A stretch of 64,000 bases of DNA from Spirosoma aureum (GTDB taxonomy: Bacteria > Bacteroidota > Bacteroidia > Cytophagales > Spirosomataceae), in NCBI RefSeq assembly GCF_011604685.1, contig NZ_CP050063.1, positions 2,812,501 to 2,876,500 on the forward strand, written 5' to 3'. Both the position numbers and the translations under genes were made by a program. The notes under the pieces were generated by a model, which searched no databases, was not told the DNA's origin, and saw only the letters and a list, made by a program, of their open reading frames with translations. The first letter of the stretch is position 1. Every line of letters starts with the position of its first letter. Of this stretch, positions 5,762 through 43,324 are shown in pieces.

Positions 5762-7684
5762 ATGATTCGTATACAACTACTCATCATTATTCTGCTAGGT
5801 GGTTTTTCACTTGGCTATGCTCAATCGACCACATCTGATTCGTTGTTCGTCCGGCAGAACTATACGAAACTTGACCGGAAAATTTCAATGCGCGATGGCA
5901 CCAAACTTTATACCGTCATCTACGTACCGAACGATGCCAGTCCGGCCAATCGCTATCCAATTCTAATGGAGCGGACGCCGTATTCGGCCGGCCCCTATGG
6001 AGAAAGTAAATACCCTTCGGCTGGACCTGGCCCGAACAAAGACCTGTCGCAGGAAAAGTACATATTTGTTAATCAGGATGTTCGGGGGCGCTACATGAGC
6101 GAGGGGAATTTCGAAGAGATGACGCCCGCCATAGCCACATCGGGTCGGACAAAGGGTAACACAAAAAAGTCATCAGCCGGAGGTGCCAAAAAAAATAGCC
6201 CGCCCGTTTTGGCGACGGATGAAAGCACGGATACCTACGACACCATTGAGTGGTTACTCAAAAATATTCCGAATAACAACGGTCGTGTTGGCCTTATTGG
6301 CATTTCTTATCCCGGTTTCTACGCATCGGCAGCCCTGCCTAATGCCCATCCGGCCCTGAAAGCGGTTTCGCCACAGGCTCCCGTTACCGACGAATTTATT
6401 GGTGATGATGCCCGTCACAATGGTGCGTTTTTTCTGCTCGATAATTTCTCGTTCATGAACTACTTCGATGCTCCACGCAAAGGACCGGTTGAGGACTATG
6501 AACCGTTATTTACGTCGAAGCCAACGGATGCGTACCAGTTTTTTCTCGATTTAGGCCCCATCCGGAATGCCAATGGACCGAACTATTTTAATAATCGTGC
6601 CAAAATCTGGAACGAGTATCTGGAACATGACACCTATGACGATTACTGGCAAACGCGCAATATCCGACCACATTTAAAGAATGTTAAGCCCGCTACGATG
6701 GTAGTTGGCGGCTGGTTTGACGCCGAAGACCTGTTTGGCGCGCTACGGACCTATGAAGCGATTGAAAAACAGTCCAGCGGAAATCGGAATACGCTCGTCA
6801 TGGGACCCTGGACACACGGGGCATGGGCGCGTGACGACTGGAGCCAGTTTGGACCGCTTTCGTTTGGTCAGAATACGGCTAAATACTACCGTGATAATCT
6901 GGAATCGCGATTTTTCGCGTTTCATCTAAAAAATAAAGGAGATTTTACTGCCGCTGAAGCAATGGTCTTCGATACGGGCACAAATGAATGGAAATCGTTC
7001 GATACCTGGCCACCCAAAGCTGTCCAGTCACAGCATTTTTATCTGGCGCCGAATCGGAAGCTAACAACCGATAAATCAACCGGGAATGATTTATTTAAGG
7101 AGTATGTCAGTGATCCGGCCATGCCTGTGCCTTATACAAGCGGTGTACAGACCCGGCGAAACAACCAGTATGTGATTGAAGATCAGCGATTCGTTGCCGA
7201 TCGCCCTGATGTTGTCGTCTTTGAAGGCGAACCACTGACCGAAGACTTGACCGTGGCAGGCCCGATCAATGCCAAACTGTTTGTTTCGACAACGGGTACG
7301 GATGCCGATTTTATTGTTAAAGTCATTGATGTATTACCTGATTCATCGGCAAGCCCTGATCCGAAAGGTAATTACCAGCGCTTGGTACGAGCTGAGGTGT
7401 TGCGCGGGAAATTCAGAAACAGTTTCACAACGCCAGAACCTTTTAAACCGGGCCAAATAGCAGCGGTTTCGATCCAGTTACCCGATGTTATGCACACGTT
7501 CAAAAAGGGTCACCGGCTGATGGTACAGGTGCAGCATTCGTGGTTCCCGATTGTTGACCGCAACCCGCAAAAGTTTATGACTATTGCAAAAGCTGAGGCT
7601 ACTGACTTTCAAAAAGCCACCATTCGCCTGTATCATGATAGGAATCATCCATCAGAAATTGAACTGAATAGTCTTGTTAAATAG
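5762..7684 (+). CDS. CocE/NonD-type alpha/beta hydrolase (X-Pro dipeptidyl-peptidase-like)
   Basis: This is a 640-residue exported serine hydrolase. The start at 5762 begins a signal peptide (MIRIQLLIIILLGGFSLGYA/Q); an in-frame extension to 5696 would bury it and is rejected. Characteristic pieces are RDGTKLYTVIYVP, NQDVRGRYMSEG and the nucleophile Ser182 in GLIGISYPGFY. Asp320 in GGWFDAEDLFG and His352 in GPWTHGAW complete the triad. A beta-jelly-roll C-terminal domain follows (from about residue 490; FKKGHRLMVQVQHSWFP). Family members cleave esters, acyl amides or X-Pro dipeptides, and the substrate here is open. An unusual Lys/Ser/Thr-rich insert (near residues 130-150) sits between the DVRGR motif and the nucleophile elbow. 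Confidence 0.9.
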   Translation: MIRIQLLIIILLGGFSLGYAQSTTSDSLFVRQNYTKLDRKISMRDGTKLYTVIYVPNDASPANRYPILMERTPYSAGPYGESKYPSAGPGPNKDLSQEKYIFVNQDVRGRYMSEGNFEEMTPAIATSGRTKGNTKKSSAGGAKKNSPPVLATDESTDTYDTIEWLLKNIPNNNGRVGLIGISYPGFYASAALPNAHPALKAVSPQAPVTDEFIGDDARHNGAFFLLDNFSFMNYFDAPRKGPVEDYEPLFTSKPTDAYQFFLDLGPIRNANGPNYFNNRAKIWNEYLEHDTYDDYWQTRNIRPHLKNVKPATMVVGGWFDAEDLFGALRTYEAIEKQSSGNRNTLVMGPWTHGAWARDDWSQFGPLSFGQNTAKYYRDNLESRFFAFHLKNKGDFTAAEAMVFDTGTNEWKSFDTWPPKAVQSQHFYLAPNRKLTTDKSTGNDLFKEYVSDPAMPVPYTSGVQTRRNNQYVIEDQRFVADRPDVVVFEGEPLTEDLTVAGPINAKLFVSTTGTDADFIVKVIDVLPDSSASPDPKGNYQRLVRAEVLRGKFRNSFTTPEPFKPGQIAAVSIQLPDVMHTFKKGHRLMVQVQHSWFPIVDRNPQKFMTIAKAEATDFQKATIRLYHDRNHPSEIELNSLVK

Positions 7685-39440: not shown

Positions 39441-40421
39441 ATGGAACTGAATGTTGGTATCATTGGTGGAGCTGGCTACACGGGTGGCGAATTGCTTCGA
39501 ATTCTAATTAATCACCCATTTGTTAACGTAGCTTTTGTGCATAGCAAAAGCCAGGCGGGAAAACCCGTTTGGGTAACGCACACCGATCTGCTGGGTGATA
39601 CAGACCTGACGTTTTCGGGAGAAGAACCTGCGGTTCTGTTGGCTCAGGACGGGCTGGACGCTGTTTTTCTATGCTCAGGGCATGGCGCATCCGCTACGTT
39701 CATGGCCGAAAATGAAATTTCAGACGACATTACCGTAATCGATCTTAGCACCGATTTTCGCGATGAGCACGATGATTTCGTTTATGGCTTGCCCGAACTT
39801 CAGCGCGAACGGATTCAGGAAGCTACACGTGTTGCTAATCCAGGTTGTTTCGCAACCAGTATACAACTGGCCCTGCTGCCATTGGCCAAAGCGAATCTTT
39901 TGCTGAATGATATTCAGGTTAGTGCCATTACGGGCAGCACCGGTGCAGGGCAGGCTCTCGTACCTACCACGGGCTTTACGTGGCGCAATAATAACATCTC
40001 GATTTATAAGGCATTTACGCATCAGCACCTGACCGAAATCCGTCAGAGTTTAACAACACTCGACCCGGCTTTTAACCACGCGATCAATTTCATACCCTAC
40101 CGGGGCGACTTTACACGCGGAATCATGGCCAATGTCTATACACCGTTTGCGGGTACGATGGATGAAGCTAAAGCGTTGTATAAGACTTACTATGCCAATC
40201 ACCCATTCACACACGTAAGCGATTCGCCGGTCGATGTAAAGCAGGTGGTGAATACGAATAAATGCTTTCTGCATCTCGAACTCCACGACGGGCAATTATT
40301 GATCACAAGTGTCATTGATAACCTGACCAAAGGGGCGGCTGGTCAGGCTGTTCAGAATCTGAACCTGGTTTTTGGCTTACCCGAAGACACGGGGCTACGA
40401 TTGAAATCCGTAGCGTTTTAG
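39441..40421 (+). CDS. argC: N-acetyl-gamma-glutamyl-phosphate reductase
   Basis: This 326-residue arginine-synthesis enzyme reduces N-acetylglutamyl phosphate with NADPH. It has the nucleotide motif VGIIGGAGYTGGELLRIL and active-site Cys136 in VANPGCFATSIQLALLPLA. Then follow TGSTGAGQAL and HQHLTEI with the catalytic His. It belongs to the short (type 1) ArgC class. It sits 121 bases after the glycosyltransferase and 1.4 kb after argG. The remaining arginine genes (argB, argD, argF) are not in the window. Confidence 0.95.
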   Translation: MELNVGIIGGAGYTGGELLRILINHPFVNVAFVHSKSQAGKPVWVTHTDLLGDTDLTFSGEEPAVLLAQDGLDAVFLCSGHGASATFMAENEISDDITVIDLSTDFRDEHDDFVYGLPELQRERIQEATRVANPGCFATSIQLALLPLAKANLLLNDIQVSAITGSTGAGQALVPTTGFTWRNNNISIYKAFTHQHLTEIRQSLTTLDPAFNHAINFIPYRGDFTRGIMANVYTPFAGTMDEAKALYKTYYANHPFTHVSDSPVDVKQVVNTNKCFLHLELHDGQLLITSVIDNLTKGAAGQAVQNLNLVFGLPEDTGLRLKSVAF

Positions 40422-40466: not shown

Positions 40467-41414
40467 ATGCAATTCTTGCTGGTAAGAGCTTTATTGATAG
40501 CTACTTTGGTTAGTTTGCTAGTGGCTTGTCGTTCAACTAAAGAACTTTATCCGCAAACAAAATCCGGGAGCGATTACTGCGCTCCCGCTTTGCAGTATAC
40601 CTACAACCCGGCCGACTTTCCCCGGCCCGACATTGATTCTATTCTGCGGATCGATACCAGCCTAACCAACCGGTATACGCGACATGATTTGCTCATGGCT
40701 AATGCCACAGGCGTTTTGCCTTTATTGCGGGAACTGAATCAGTTAGATAAACGGGTGCTTACAACGGATGTACGCTTAGAGCAGGTTATAAAACGACAGC
40801 AAATTCAGCAGCGCTTATCGCTGGCATCGACGGAACTGTCGAGCGTTGCAGCCGAACTGGATTGTGAAGGCGAACGCGCCGATCAATTGGCTACTTACCT
40901 GGACCAGAAAGATACCCAGCGCATTCGCCGTTTGACAATTTTTTCGGTTGTTGTTGGTGCAATCACAACGGTAGCTACTGCACTCATTGAGGCCGATAAC
41001 GCAACCAAAATTGTAGGCATATCGGGTGGCCTGGTCAGTGCTACAGCCGGTGGACTTGCTGCGTTTTCGTCTAACAAGACCGTTTACTTTGCGCATAAAC
41101 GGAATCTGCTGGCTGACCTCTGGTACCAGCCTAAACAGTCGTCGGTTTATCCACCGCTCGTCTGGTATGTACTCAACGAAAAATCATTCAGCAATAGCGG
41201 TCAGACATCTATCAGTGACAATATACGCCAACGCTGGAAGGGTTATGTACTGACTGGGATAGCCAGCAGTCAACAGGAGTTATATTTTGGATCGGGCGGA
41301 AACTATCAGGCCGACGACCTGCATACACGGGCTAATATGCTTAATCAGCTCCAATCGTCAGTTCGGTCAATAAACCAGGATTTGCAGGGCTTAATGCTGA
41401 GTTTGGCGAATTGA
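40467..41414 (+). CDS. hypothetical lipoprotein with two helices
   Basis: This 315-residue protein has lipobox SLLVAC (Cys21). A helical coiled region (about 80-145; LRELNQLDKRVLTTDVRLEQ) is followed by two hydrophobic helices (about 158-175 and 182-197; TIFSVVVGAITTVATALIEA and IVGISGGLVSATAGGLAAF) with a hairpin-like turn. A soluble C-terminal part ends DLQGLMLSLAN. The paired Gly/Ala-rich helices resemble a membrane-inserting hairpin. I do not recognise the family. It is on the plus strand, opposite the DUF4926 and DUF6883 genes. Confidence 0.75.
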   Translation: MQFLLVRALLIATLVSLLVACRSTKELYPQTKSGSDYCAPALQYTYNPADFPRPDIDSILRIDTSLTNRYTRHDLLMANATGVLPLLRELNQLDKRVLTTDVRLEQVIKRQQIQQRLSLASTELSSVAAELDCEGERADQLATYLDQKDTQRIRRLTIFSVVVGAITTVATALIEADNATKIVGISGGLVSATAGGLAAFSSNKTVYFAHKRNLLADLWYQPKQSSVYPPLVWYVLNEKSFSNSGQTSISDNIRQRWKGYVLTGIASSQQELYFGSGGNYQADDLHTRANMLNQLQSSVRSINQDLQGLMLSLAN

Positions 41415-41419
41415 TCTCG

Positions 41420-41455
41420 CTGTAAACTCCGGCGGATTTGAGCCTCGCGGGCATT
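41420..41455. repeat. 36-bp direct repeat, distal copy
   Basis: CTGTAAACTCCGGCGGATTT is followed by two differing bases and GCCTCGCGGGCATT. It is 34 of 36 identical to 42083-42118, inside the rarA 3' end. Read on the minus strand it still encodes NAREAQIRRSLQ, close to the rarA end NAREAEIRRSLQ. The two copies bracket the DUF6883/DUF4926 pair at a distance of 663 bp. Confidence 0.9.
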
Positions 41456-41460
41456 TCAAT

Positions 41461-41673
41461 TTATGCAGCAATAGGCTCCTGGTATACTTTCATTAGCTGA
41501 GTGGCTGACAAAACAGGCATAGCGTAGGTAACACCGTTTAGGTTAGCAAATTCAACAAGAAAATTGCCATTGTCAAACGTCTCAACGATCGTTCCCAAAC
41601 TGCCTTTTCGCAGTTTTTCGGCCGGAATATCAATGAGCAATACAACGACATCTAATAAAGCGGGCGAATCCAT
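41461..41673 (-). CDS. DUF4926 family small protein
   Basis: This 70-residue single beta-barrel-like (SH3-like) domain reads LLDVVVLLIDIPAEKLRKGS, LGTIVETFDNGNFLVEFANL and LSATQLMKVYQE. From memory this is the DUF4926 pattern, with VVVLxxDIP at the start and GTIV then EVEF. Such proteins commonly follow a DUF6883 gene on the same strand, 11 bp away here. The pairing makes an immunity or antitoxin-like partner plausible, but nothing in the sequence proves it. It ends 5 bases from the distal direct-repeat copy. Confidence 0.82.
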   Translation of the reverse strand: MDSPALLDVVVLLIDIPAEKLRKGSLGTIVETFDNGNFLVEFANLNGVTYAMPVLSATQLMKVYQEPIAA

Positions 41674-41684
41674 AATTTATTGCG

Positions 41685-42020
41685 CTAATCGTTTATATAA
41701 CAACTGACTAATCGGGGAAACGATTCATTAAATATAATAATCCATGCTGTTCTAATTGTTGCTGTTCGCCCCTGGTGAGTCATTGTAAAGTCTACCGTAT
41801 ATAAATCACCTTGTTGATTTGGGCCAGCCGCTTGCACCTCGTTCAACAGTATTTCCGTTAAAATCGTCTCCTTAAGTAAGAAGTAATCGGTTGCAGTAAG
41901 TCCTAGAACTGATTTAAAAACGCGGGCCTTATGTTTTCCAGTATTATGGGTCTCAGATAAGCAGTAATCAACTAATTTCTGATTGTCAATATAGGCCTTT
42001 TCGGCAAAAGGTAGGAGCAT
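41685..42020 (-). CDS. DUF6883 family protein
   Basis: This 111-residue protein reads MLLPFAEKAYIDNQKLVDYC, then GKHKARVFKSVLGLTATDYF, then RTAWIIIFNESFPRLVSCYI. The KHKARVF-LGLT and AWII-FPRL-CY blocks match DUF6883 as I know it, a small domain also found at the ends of polymorphic-toxin proteins. The ATG at 42020 is preferred over a TTG seven codons earlier. The gene lies 32 bases after the rarA stop, upstream of its DUF4926 partner, and inside the direct repeats. A toxin role is inference. Confidence 0.82.
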   Translation of the reverse strand: MLLPFAEKAYIDNQKLVDYCLSETHNTGKHKARVFKSVLGLTATDYFLLKETILTEILLNEVQAAGPNQQGDLYTVDFTMTHQGRTATIRTAWIIIFNESFPRLVSCYIND

Positions 42021-42052
42021 GGGACAAATGTAATAAAACAACTATTGGTCAC

Positions 42053-43324
42053 TCAATAGCCATACCACTCCCCCCACCACTTCTGTAAACTCCGGCGGAT
42101 TTCGGCCTCGCGGGCATTCTGGCCGGGTTCGTAGAGTTTATGACCTTTCAAATCATCAGGCAAAAAGTTCTGCTGGGCAAAATTGCCTTCATGATTGTGT
42201 GAATACTGATAATCTTTGCCATAACCGATTTGCTTCATCAGTTTTGTGGGTGCATTGCGCAGGTGTAGAGGCACGGGCAGATGGGCGGTCTGTTCGGCCA
42301 GGGCAATGGCGTCGTCAATCGCTACATAGCTAGCATTGCTTTTGGGCGAGGTCGCCAGATACACGGCTACCTGCGACAGAATAATCCGGCCTTCGGGCAT
42401 TCCTATCGCCCGAATCGCCTGTACGGCTTCCGAGGCCATTATCATGGCCGTAGGGTTCGCGTTTCCAATATCTTCCGATGCCAGAATCAGCATGCGCCGG
42501 GCAATGAAAATCGGATCTTCTCCGGCTATAATCATCCGGGCCATCCAGTAAAGAGCCGCATTGGGATCTGAACCACGCAACGACTTGATAAAAGCTGAAA
42601 TGATGTCGTAATGCTGCTCGCCTGATTTATCATACCGGGCAATGTTCTGCTGGGCAACAGTTGTTACGCCTTCGTCAGTAATAACCAGCGGATCGGCTGA
42701 AATGTGGGCTGAAGCAACCAATTCCAGAAGGTTCAGCAGTTTACGCCCATCGCCACCCGACAGACGGAGTAAAGCGTCGTAGGATTCGACCGTAATCTGT
42801 TTCGATTTCAAGAATGCATCCTGCTCAATAGCCCGATCCACGACCTGAATCAATTCGTCGCGGCTAAGGGCTTCCAGAATGTAAACCTGGCAGCGCGACA
42901 ATAAAGCACTGTTAACTTCAAATGAAGGGTTTTCGGTAGTTGCTCCAATGAGTGTAATCTGGCCTTTCTCAACGGCTCCCAGCAAAGCGTCCTGCTGACT
43001 TTTGTTGAACCGGTGAATCTCGTCGATAAAGACTACTGGTGGAAACATCCCCGACGGGCGGCTCAGCACATCCCGGATTTCCTTAACGCCCGAATTGATG
43101 GCGCTCAGGGCGATAAATGGTCGTTTAACGGCTTCGGCCAGTAATAGGGCCAGGGTCGTTTTCCCGACGCCAGGCGGGCCCCATAAGATCATGGATGGCA
43201 ACCGTCCGGCATCGACCGCCCGACGCAGGGCGCCTGATGGGCCTATGAGCTTACGTTGACCAATAACTTCGTCGATGGTGCGGGGGCGAACCCGCTCGGG
43301 CAGTGGCGTTGAGTCCATATTCAT
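42053..43324 (-). CDS. rarA: replication-associated recombination protein RarA (MgsA)
   Basis: This 423-residue AAA+ ATPase acts at stalled forks. Walker A is ILWGPPGVGKTTLALLLAEA and Walker B is VVFIDEIHRFNKSQQDAL. Sensor 1 follows at LIGATTENPSFEVNSALLSR. The C-terminal oligomerisation domain contains HLPVPLHLRNAPTKLMKQIG and YKYSHNHEGNFAQQ-like YQYSHNHEGNFAQQNFLP, ending KWWGEWYGY. An ATG two codons downstream of 43324 is an equal choice. Its 3' end (REAEIRRSLQ codons) is the proximal copy of the direct repeat flanking the DUF6883/DUF4926 pair. It lies downstream of a terminator. Confidence 0.96.
   Translation of the reverse strand: MNMDSTPLPERVRPRTIDEVIGQRKLIGPSGALRRAVDAGRLPSMILWGPPGVGKTTLALLLAEAVKRPFIALSAINSGVKEIRDVLSRPSGMFPPVVFIDEIHRFNKSQQDALLGAVEKGQITLIGATTENPSFEVNSALLSRCQVYILEALSRDELIQVVDRAIEQDAFLKSKQITVESYDALLRLSGGDGRKLLNLLELVASAHISADPLVITDEGVTTVAQQNIARYDKSGEQHYDIISAFIKSLRGSDPNAALYWMARMIIAGEDPIFIARRMLILASEDIGNANPTAMIMASEAVQAIRAIGMPEGRIILSQVAVYLATSPKSNASYVAIDDAIALAEQTAHLPVPLHLRNAPTKLMKQIGYGKDYQYSHNHEGNFAQQNFLPDDLKGHKLYEPGQNAREAEIRRSLQKWWGEWYGY
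42083..42118. repeat. 36-bp direct repeat, copy inside rarA
   Basis: This is the second copy of the repeat at 41420-41455 (34 of 36 identical). Here it is coding sequence for the last residues of RarA before KWWGEWYGY. Because one copy is in a conserved gene, the far copy is most simply a duplicated rarA end. Confidence 0.9.

Follow-up and report, generated by a model that had tools for sequence, protein, structure and literature searches.

A 64,000-nucleotide stretch of Spirosoma aureum DNA (contig NZ_CP050063.1, positions 2,812,501 to 2,876,500; called here the window, and its genome G000) carries two small genes, DUF6883 and DUF4926, behind rarA, which encodes an MgsA/RarA AAA+ ATPase, and a second, partial copy of the rarA 3′ end is found beyond them (Table 1). 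Both genes are on the rarA strand and lie between two copies of a 36-bp sequence, which are 34/36 identical and 663 bp apart from start to start. The proximal copy is rarA coding sequence, ending 30 bp ahead of the end of the stop codon, and the last 66 bp of rarA (42053-42118) are the counterpart of the displaced end. The distal copy encodes NAREAQIRRSLQ in frame on the rarA strand, and the similarity then stops on either side. This arrangement had been given in a preliminary description made from the sequence alone, and the coordinates bear it out. The local alignment of the repeat scores 62, and 20 shuffles gave at most 24. A pattern search of the whole genome (8.9 Mb, up to three mismatches, two positions open) found it at only these two places; that it might be a common motif of this genome, a possibility raised at the outset, is thereby ruled out. 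The cassette sits directly behind the stop codon of its host gene on the same strand, and the host gene is whole, its full 3′ end adjoining the cassette. The G+C content of the insert is 39.5%, as against 52.8% for rarA. The gap between the rarA stop codon and the pair is 32 nt, and the pair may have no promoter of its own. The DUF6883 start is probably the ATG at 42020 rather than position 42041, most close homologues being 111 aa long. The gene beyond the putative lipoprotein gene is presumably argC.

Table 1. The rarA locus of the window; positions are counted from the first nucleotide of the window.
Feature	Position	Strand	Remark
rarA (MgsA/RarA AAA+ ATPase), host gene	42053..43324	-	Pfam MgsA_C, E 3.4e-70; AAA_assoc_2, E 1.4e-23
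Proximal repeat copy, inside rarA	42083..42118	-	
DUF6883 gene, 111 aa from the probable ATG at 42020	41685..42020	-	Pfam PF21814, E 2.9e-26
DUF4926 gene, 70 aa, putative antitoxin	41461..41673	-	Pfam PF16277, E 1.1e-22
Distal repeat copy, read as the displaced original rarA 3′ end	41420..41455	-	Final 30 bp gone in the window genome
Convergent putative lipoprotein gene	40467..41414	+	Sub-threshold SLATT_1 match only, E 0.077
argC-like gene, semialdehyde dehydrogenase domains	39441..40421	+	Pfam Semialdhyde_dh, E 2.7e-25

The 3′ regions of rarA were compared among 34 of 36 genomes of the genus (no rarA 3′ end was found in G025 and G028). A second rarA 3′ end, starting 464-608 bp past the rarA stop codon, lies beyond rarA in five of the 34: the window genome, Spirosoma endbachense (G004), S. 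montaniterrae (G011), G007 and G035. Counted on rarA, it extends exactly to the stop codon in three carriers, starting at -62 in G004, at -61 in G007 and at -50 in G011; in G035 it spans -70 to -2 and in G000 -66 to -30. The copies of G011 are 50/50 identical. In the other 29 genomes the best direct-strand score was at most 27, near the shuffle maxima (22-29 overall), and no scars were detected at these single-copy loci. The pair is located between rarA and the second end in the carriers, except that G007 retains DUF4926 alone at rarA and that a stop codon interrupts DUF6883 in G035. Behind rarA of the 29 other genomes, a search of up to 4 kb, or of no more than roughly 1 kb for G010 and G026, found no sequence of the pair (best E 0.37). 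The rarA gene of G007 (G007:C1:4931548-4932817) consists of two overlapping reading frames, which may be due to a frameshift or an assembly error.

Genomes without the pair indicate what the site looked like when empty. In G002 and G013 there is one rarA end, followed by the lipoprotein region that is seen beyond the far copy in G000 and G004; this region adjoins rarA directly in G002 and is reached 19 nt past the stop codon in G013. The empty-site counterparts of G007 are G003, G005 and G022, in which the homologous flank lies 6-10 nt past the rarA stop codon; in G007 another 1.1 kb intervenes. G011 yielded no homologous flank, and G035 only a short distant match, with none next to the copy. 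Because its flank directly follows rarA in relatives, the far copy occupies, where testable, the former end of rarA, and on this flank the downstream copy is best read as the native rarA end. As judged from its context in G000, G004 and G007 and from the truncated or mutated copies, the original end has been displaced and is decaying. The preliminary description had proposed that the pair is a cassette inserted at the end of rarA with duplication of that end, and had predicted a single copy and a clean rarA-lipoprotein junction in relatives lacking it, as is the case in G002 and G013. The insertion is therefore supported, with the refinement that the far copy is probably the displaced original end, complete in G004, G007 and G011. 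Fixation of the pair in all relatives, which would have spoken against insertion, is not observed, since it stands behind rarA in 5/34 genomes. Among 80 rarA loci of other genera, 79 of which have enough downstream sequence, no repeat was above threshold (0/79), which rules out a general feature of rarA.

Within the pair, Pfam recognizes only DUF6883 and DUF4926 and no homing endonuclease, and no integrase is encoded in the rarA inserts, which hold the pair or a part of it only. PADLOC assigned no defence family to either protein at E up to 1, and sequence searches of PDB with the pair gave a single match at chance level. The structure model of DUF6883 (predicted local distance difference test, pLDDT, 91.6) matches CdiA toxin domains, and that of DUF4926 (pLDDT 92.3) matches SH3 domains (best Foldseek E 0.016). 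DUF6883 is thus predicted to fold like the RNase toxins of the CdiA/RelE type, a fold class that we take to be the one called 'BECR' in the literature, and DUF4926 is predicted to be an SH3-like beta protein and a putative antitoxin; the models suggest that the two function as an RNase toxin and its partner. The known toxin fold expected of a type II toxin-antitoxin (TA) module is present in DUF6883 as a predicted fold only. The CdiA-CT toxin domains of Klebsiella pneumoniae 342 and Escherichia coli 3006 (PDB 6cp9, 6cp8, 6vek) are 12-15% identical to DUF6883, which unlike them is free-standing rather than the C-terminus of a secreted effector, the likeness being one of predicted fold. Unlike in the type II modules HigBA, ParDE and RelBE, the partner looks SH3-like, and the pair follows rarA at 32 nt. 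In the literature searched, no paper naming DUF6883 was found; DUF4926 is named in one paper, a cyanophage survey. DUF4926 was found in all 36 genomes of the genus searched, many copies being distant from any DUF6883 match.

The linkage of the pair to rarA appears to have a long history. G000 and G004 match in both insert and flank, with 92% similarity over 2.5 kb, and share one insertion, in agreement with the earlier remark that the event is not very recent. On the rarA tree, many branches of which are weak, the five carriers need at least four changes, at least two of them forced by well-supported branches, and they are no more clustered than shuffled labels (121/500 as low). A single recent insertion in all five species is not supported by carriers scattered in this way. 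In a tree of 12 pairs, from which G007 was left out for want of DUF6883 at rarA, six rarA-linked pairs are set apart from six others, three of them glnS-linked (100/100). The grouping (G035,(G000,G004)) matches the rarA tree, and the rest of the rarA-linked group is unresolved. Wholly independent insertions are not demonstrated, since the trees of the pair and of rarA do not conflict. The rarA-linked group includes Rudanella paleaurantiibacter (G193) and Fibrisoma limi BUZ 3 (G150), where the pair sits in the rarA-argC interval and no rarA repeat was detected, so that the notion of an insertion origin has to be refined: the link of the pair to this region would predate the repeats. The rarA end of its own genome is the best match of each distal copy, alone or in a tie: that of G011 agrees with its own rarA end at 48/48 positions and with any other at no more than 43/48, the margin is two bases in G004 and a single base in both G007 and G035, and for G000 there is a tie with G004. 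The repeats accordingly look younger than the linkage between rarA and the pair, and this own-genome likeness would fit re-entry from close relatives and recombination between the copies equally well.

The same pair also stands behind other genes. DUF6883 was found in 21 of the 36 genomes of the genus, at 26 places whose neighbourhoods, read by eye, comprise 4 at rarA, 3 at glnS, 10 at gltB, 4 at a sodium:solute symporter gene and 5 elsewhere (the host gene was checked with Pfam at one locus each for glnS, gltB and the symporter). In G022 the pair behind glnS is followed by a 57-bp second glnS end that runs precisely to the stop codon. The start of a degenerate copy in G035 is within 2 nt of the same place, and in G002 the pair is present with no remnant. 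In G002 and G035 the stop codon of glnS and the start codon of DUF6883 overlap, and no integrase was found in the glnS inserts. A glnS remnant 84 bp behind glnS in G017 (near C1:3287654, L292) is accompanied by no pair and is possibly the footprint of a lost cassette; in G030 a copy of the glnS C-terminal part (C31:14388-14495, minus strand) is on a contig other than that of glnS itself. DUF6883/DUF4926-like pairs or remnants linked to gltB, mostly ahead of a gene that we take to be gltD, occur in ten Spirosoma genomes (L146, L147, L157-L160, L162-L164 and L166). At the gltB-pair-gltD and symporter-pair loci, no duplicated gene end exceeded the shuffles by more than a few points. In self-comparisons of further DUF6883 loci, L209 (the same locus as L229) has a 41-bp repeat, which by eye copies the terminator region behind rplQ, and L219 has a 109-bp repeat.

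A corresponding layout is also seen with other cargo. Toxin loci with 1.5-kb flanks, which were the best-scoring search returns and not a random sample, were scanned for repeats within themselves, L247 and L010 being skipped in the gene-end scan for their many repeats. Direct repeats spanning the toxin were found at 2/30 HigB, 8/30 ParE and 8/46 DUF6883 loci, of which 2, 4 and 4, respectively, have a repeat that ends no more than 4 nt from the stop codon of a gene. The spanning repeats include weak ones and ones of a different sort (L218, 16 bp; L347, 35.6 bits; L356, a repeat array). The four stop-registered ParE loci and the four of DUF6883 are not independent, because target genes are shared. 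All four ParE loci, inferred to be ParDE modules, are behind tyrA (prephenate dehydrogenase; Pfam on one), and the displaced tyrA end is followed by a gene that is presumably aldo/keto-reductase-like. In a tyrA search, 28 of 30 returned loci were read, and a displaced end was present in five (G006, G008, G020, G021 and G030), each finishing exactly at the stop codon with ParE matches in between; two more are in G015 and, with a stop codon inside the copy, in G007. No integrase was seen in the tyrA inserts displayed. G032 has another tyrA 3′ end on the same strand, 28 kb downstream of tyrA (C1:4505424 / 4533568), and a ParE-like motif is directly behind tyrA, as if a much larger insertion had occurred at this site. 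Of the two HigB cases, one follows a heparinase-like gene (113 bp, 91%); the other, in which HigBA is reversed, follows a gene that has a cyclic-nucleotide-binding domain (36 bp). In a Cytophagales metagenome-assembled genome a HigB toxin and its helix-turn-helix partner follow a 691-aa gene, with a displaced end of 58-64 bp finishing at the stop codon.

Spanning repeats were present in 9/528 unmatched background windows, cut from the retrieved loci, and stop-registered ones in 0/528, as against 18/106 and 10/106 of the TA-type loci (Fisher 4e-9 and 1e-8, for windows that overlap by half and loci that are not independent); at least one of the nine (L240) is an off-centre DUF6883 locus. Counted by distinct target gene, HigB and ParE gave 3/57 against 0/264 background windows, halved for overlap (p 0.005). 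GNAT loci, a better-matched control, gave 3/30 spanning repeats, all of 30-32 bits, and 0/30 stop-registered ones, and are too few to decide generality. That the layout is general is strongly suggested by the repeated exact cases and not proven by the counts.

It is probable, in our judgement, that the pair is a TA-like cassette without an integrase that entered, together with a host gene end, behind the stop codon of a conserved gene. The inserted unit would consist of a complete rarA 3′ end and the DUF6883/DUF4926 pair; rarA would afterwards use the cassette-side 3′ end, leaving the original end beyond as a decaying remnant. Both entry and exit might proceed by recombination through the homology between the two gene ends, exit restoring a clean rarA, and the pair, as a toxin and its neutraliser by predicted fold, would resist loss. 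The rarA-linked lineage of the pair would be old, and the repeats seen today would be of later date, re-entry or recombination between copies having renewed them. The target ends of rarA, glnS and tyrA have no common core by eye, so that an enzyme acting in trans is not needed and homology-driven recombination is at least as likely. Of the earlier suggestion that no integrase is visible and that the mobilising enzyme would act in trans, the former part stands and the latter does not as a requirement; a recombinase in trans or a staggered-cut duplication is a possible mechanism.

If the near end was imported, the two copies should differ mostly at synonymous sites. The copies of glnS in G022 differ at 5 synonymous and 2 non-synonymous codons, and those at L325, behind the heparinase-like gene, at 4 synonymous and 1 non-synonymous within the final 75 nt, upstream of which there is a 1-nt deletion. 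The test is clearly informative only in G209, a genome of another genus, where a 210-bp duplication of the rarA 3′ end (L202, 4869-5078 / 6993-7202; 88.6%) encloses a beta-propeller (SBBP) gene that is unrelated to the pair and lies on the other strand, a parallel and not a TA case. There the ends differ at 13 synonymous and 4 non-synonymous codons, which favours an imported near end. Codon changes would thus point to a foreign near end only in G209, which has other cargo, and weakly in G022. The sequences of relatives at alaS and glnS, compared for which copy is foreign, favour neither answer.

Several observations weigh against entry of a mobile cassette with a gene end. The rarA copies differ at 7 synonymous and 8 non-synonymous codons over the five genomes, which is compatible with local origin and drift and gives no sign of an imported end. 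The glnS case of G035 is weak, its score of 26 barely exceeding the highest shuffle (25). Of 37 additional DUF6883 loci, all but one from outside the genus, 34 were testable, and none of these had a clear copy of the upstream gene end; only L229 (32 against 25) and L260 (27 against 25) exceeded the shuffles. No circular or excised form was observed. The GNAT control does not separate from the TA-type loci (Fisher p 0.57 for spanning and 0.12 for stop-registered repeats). Finally, the pair tree fits the rarA tree for six taxa, and in Rudanella and Fibrisoma the pair occupies the rarA-argC interval and no rarA repeat is detectable, so that long vertical inheritance explains much.

Carried further, vertical inheritance leads to an explanation with no real mobility, in which an old operon-tail pair was near rarA before the split of Spirosoma, Rudanella and Fibrisoma and was mostly lost, the repeat having arisen once in Spirosoma and been kept similar by gene conversion. 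We think this unlikely: it accounts for the compatible trees, for the occurrence in the rarA-argC interval of three genera and for a divergence of the pair that tracks rarA (93.5% for the insert and 92.7% for rarA between G000 and G004), but not readily for the lack of a detectable repeat in Rudanella and Fibrisoma, the four or more changes on the weakly resolved rarA tree, two or more of them well supported, the 29/34 single-copy loci without detected scars, or the identical layout with unrelated toxin families and other genes. Alternatively, an enzyme might make a long staggered cut at the gene 3′ end, the fill-in of which duplicates resident sequence. Such a target-site duplication has no reason to end at a stop codon, yet the copies of rarA (3/5), of glnS in G022 and of tyrA do so, the matched length varies from 15 to 210 bp, and the 13:4 ratio in G209 resembles that of two copies evolving as working genes. 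It is therefore regarded as unlikely, although the affinity of the distal copies to the rarA end of their own genome, the identical copies in G011 and rarA differences that are not enriched in synonymous changes beyond the drift of one copy would all fit.

Integrative elements are known to target the 3′ ends of tRNA genes and typically restore the 3′ end of the gene. By analogy, an integrative element could have been moved in trans by a tyrosine recombinase targeting gene 3′ ends, and in three other genomes (L233, L243 and L254) the DUF6883 match starts 2-17 nt behind a gene that by eye resembles that of a tyrosine recombinase, possibly a carrier of the pair. Against this, an integrase is absent from the rarA and glnS inserts and was not seen in the tyrA inserts displayed, the three target ends share no core by eye, and the cassettes are only about 0.5-0.6 kb, making this origin quite improbable.

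To our knowledge, the entry of small chromosomal TA modules without a transposon or an integrase is poorly explained. Insertion of restriction-modification genes with long target duplication was reportedly described by Nobusato et al. in 2000 (Gene 259:99). When such genes insert, the target is duplicated over a long and variable stretch, on the order of 100 bp (PMC3874152, PMC1643837), and a TA review cites the work of Nobusato for restriction-modification systems (PMC2654758). The present case is similar in that an addiction-type unit without a transposase is bounded by long direct duplications of host sequence, and the sites are single-copy in relatives; both features expected of a long target duplication are found, the long flanking copies and the empty single-copy sites (G002 and G013; G003, G005 and G022). 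It differs in that the cargo is DUF6883/DUF4926, ParE or HigB and not a restriction-modification system, that the duplication is a gene 3′ end often finishing at the stop codon, and that the host belongs to Bacteroidota and not to Helicobacter. Mobile open reading frames of fungal mitochondria carry a replacement C-terminus that displaces the native one, as in Allomyces atp6 and Glomus atp6, atp9, cox2 and nad3, and the new C-terminus was inferred by the authors from sequence to be foreign (PMC3630166). They share the order of new gene end, insert and native end downstream, but encode a homing endonuclease, whereas a predicted RNase toxin and its partner are found here and no DNA endonuclease is seen. 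The rarA case thus shares its architecture with both kinds and by cargo belongs to neither. In the literature titles and abstract openings searched, no description of the displaced-gene-end layout for TA modules was found, and the use of such insertion by TA modules, in register with stop codons, looks new.

The locus provides a countable signature, a displaced host-gene end finishing at the stop codon, which can be tested at rarA, glnS, tyrA and the heparinase-like gene with three toxin families, and it suggests that toxin-type pairs can move without a transposase or an integrase of their own. A wider and more tentative proposal, which we find plausible yet rather doubtful, is that unrelated TA families of Bacteroidota share an integrase-free movement in which a gene 3′ end travels with the module, entry occurs by homology, the gene is restored exactly to its stop codon, its native end is displaced and exit can be clean. 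If true, addiction and a carried gene end would together make homing-like selfish units that dock at housekeeping genes, which might also serve as their promoters.

Among other repeats, those of L005 and L081 were read as not being real gene ends. The alaS gene (name presumed) of G198 was dropped as a sixth target gene (103 bp), as there is no recognisable gene in the insert and the near copy is native, given that the sequence immediately following the proximal copy is also found in the relatives G207 and G208. At this locus (L260, 2054-2153 / 2470-2572), the copy of the alaS 3′ end is about 100 bp long, 93% identical and 320 bp past the stop codon, and the two ends encode the same residues except for one in-frame 3-nt indel.

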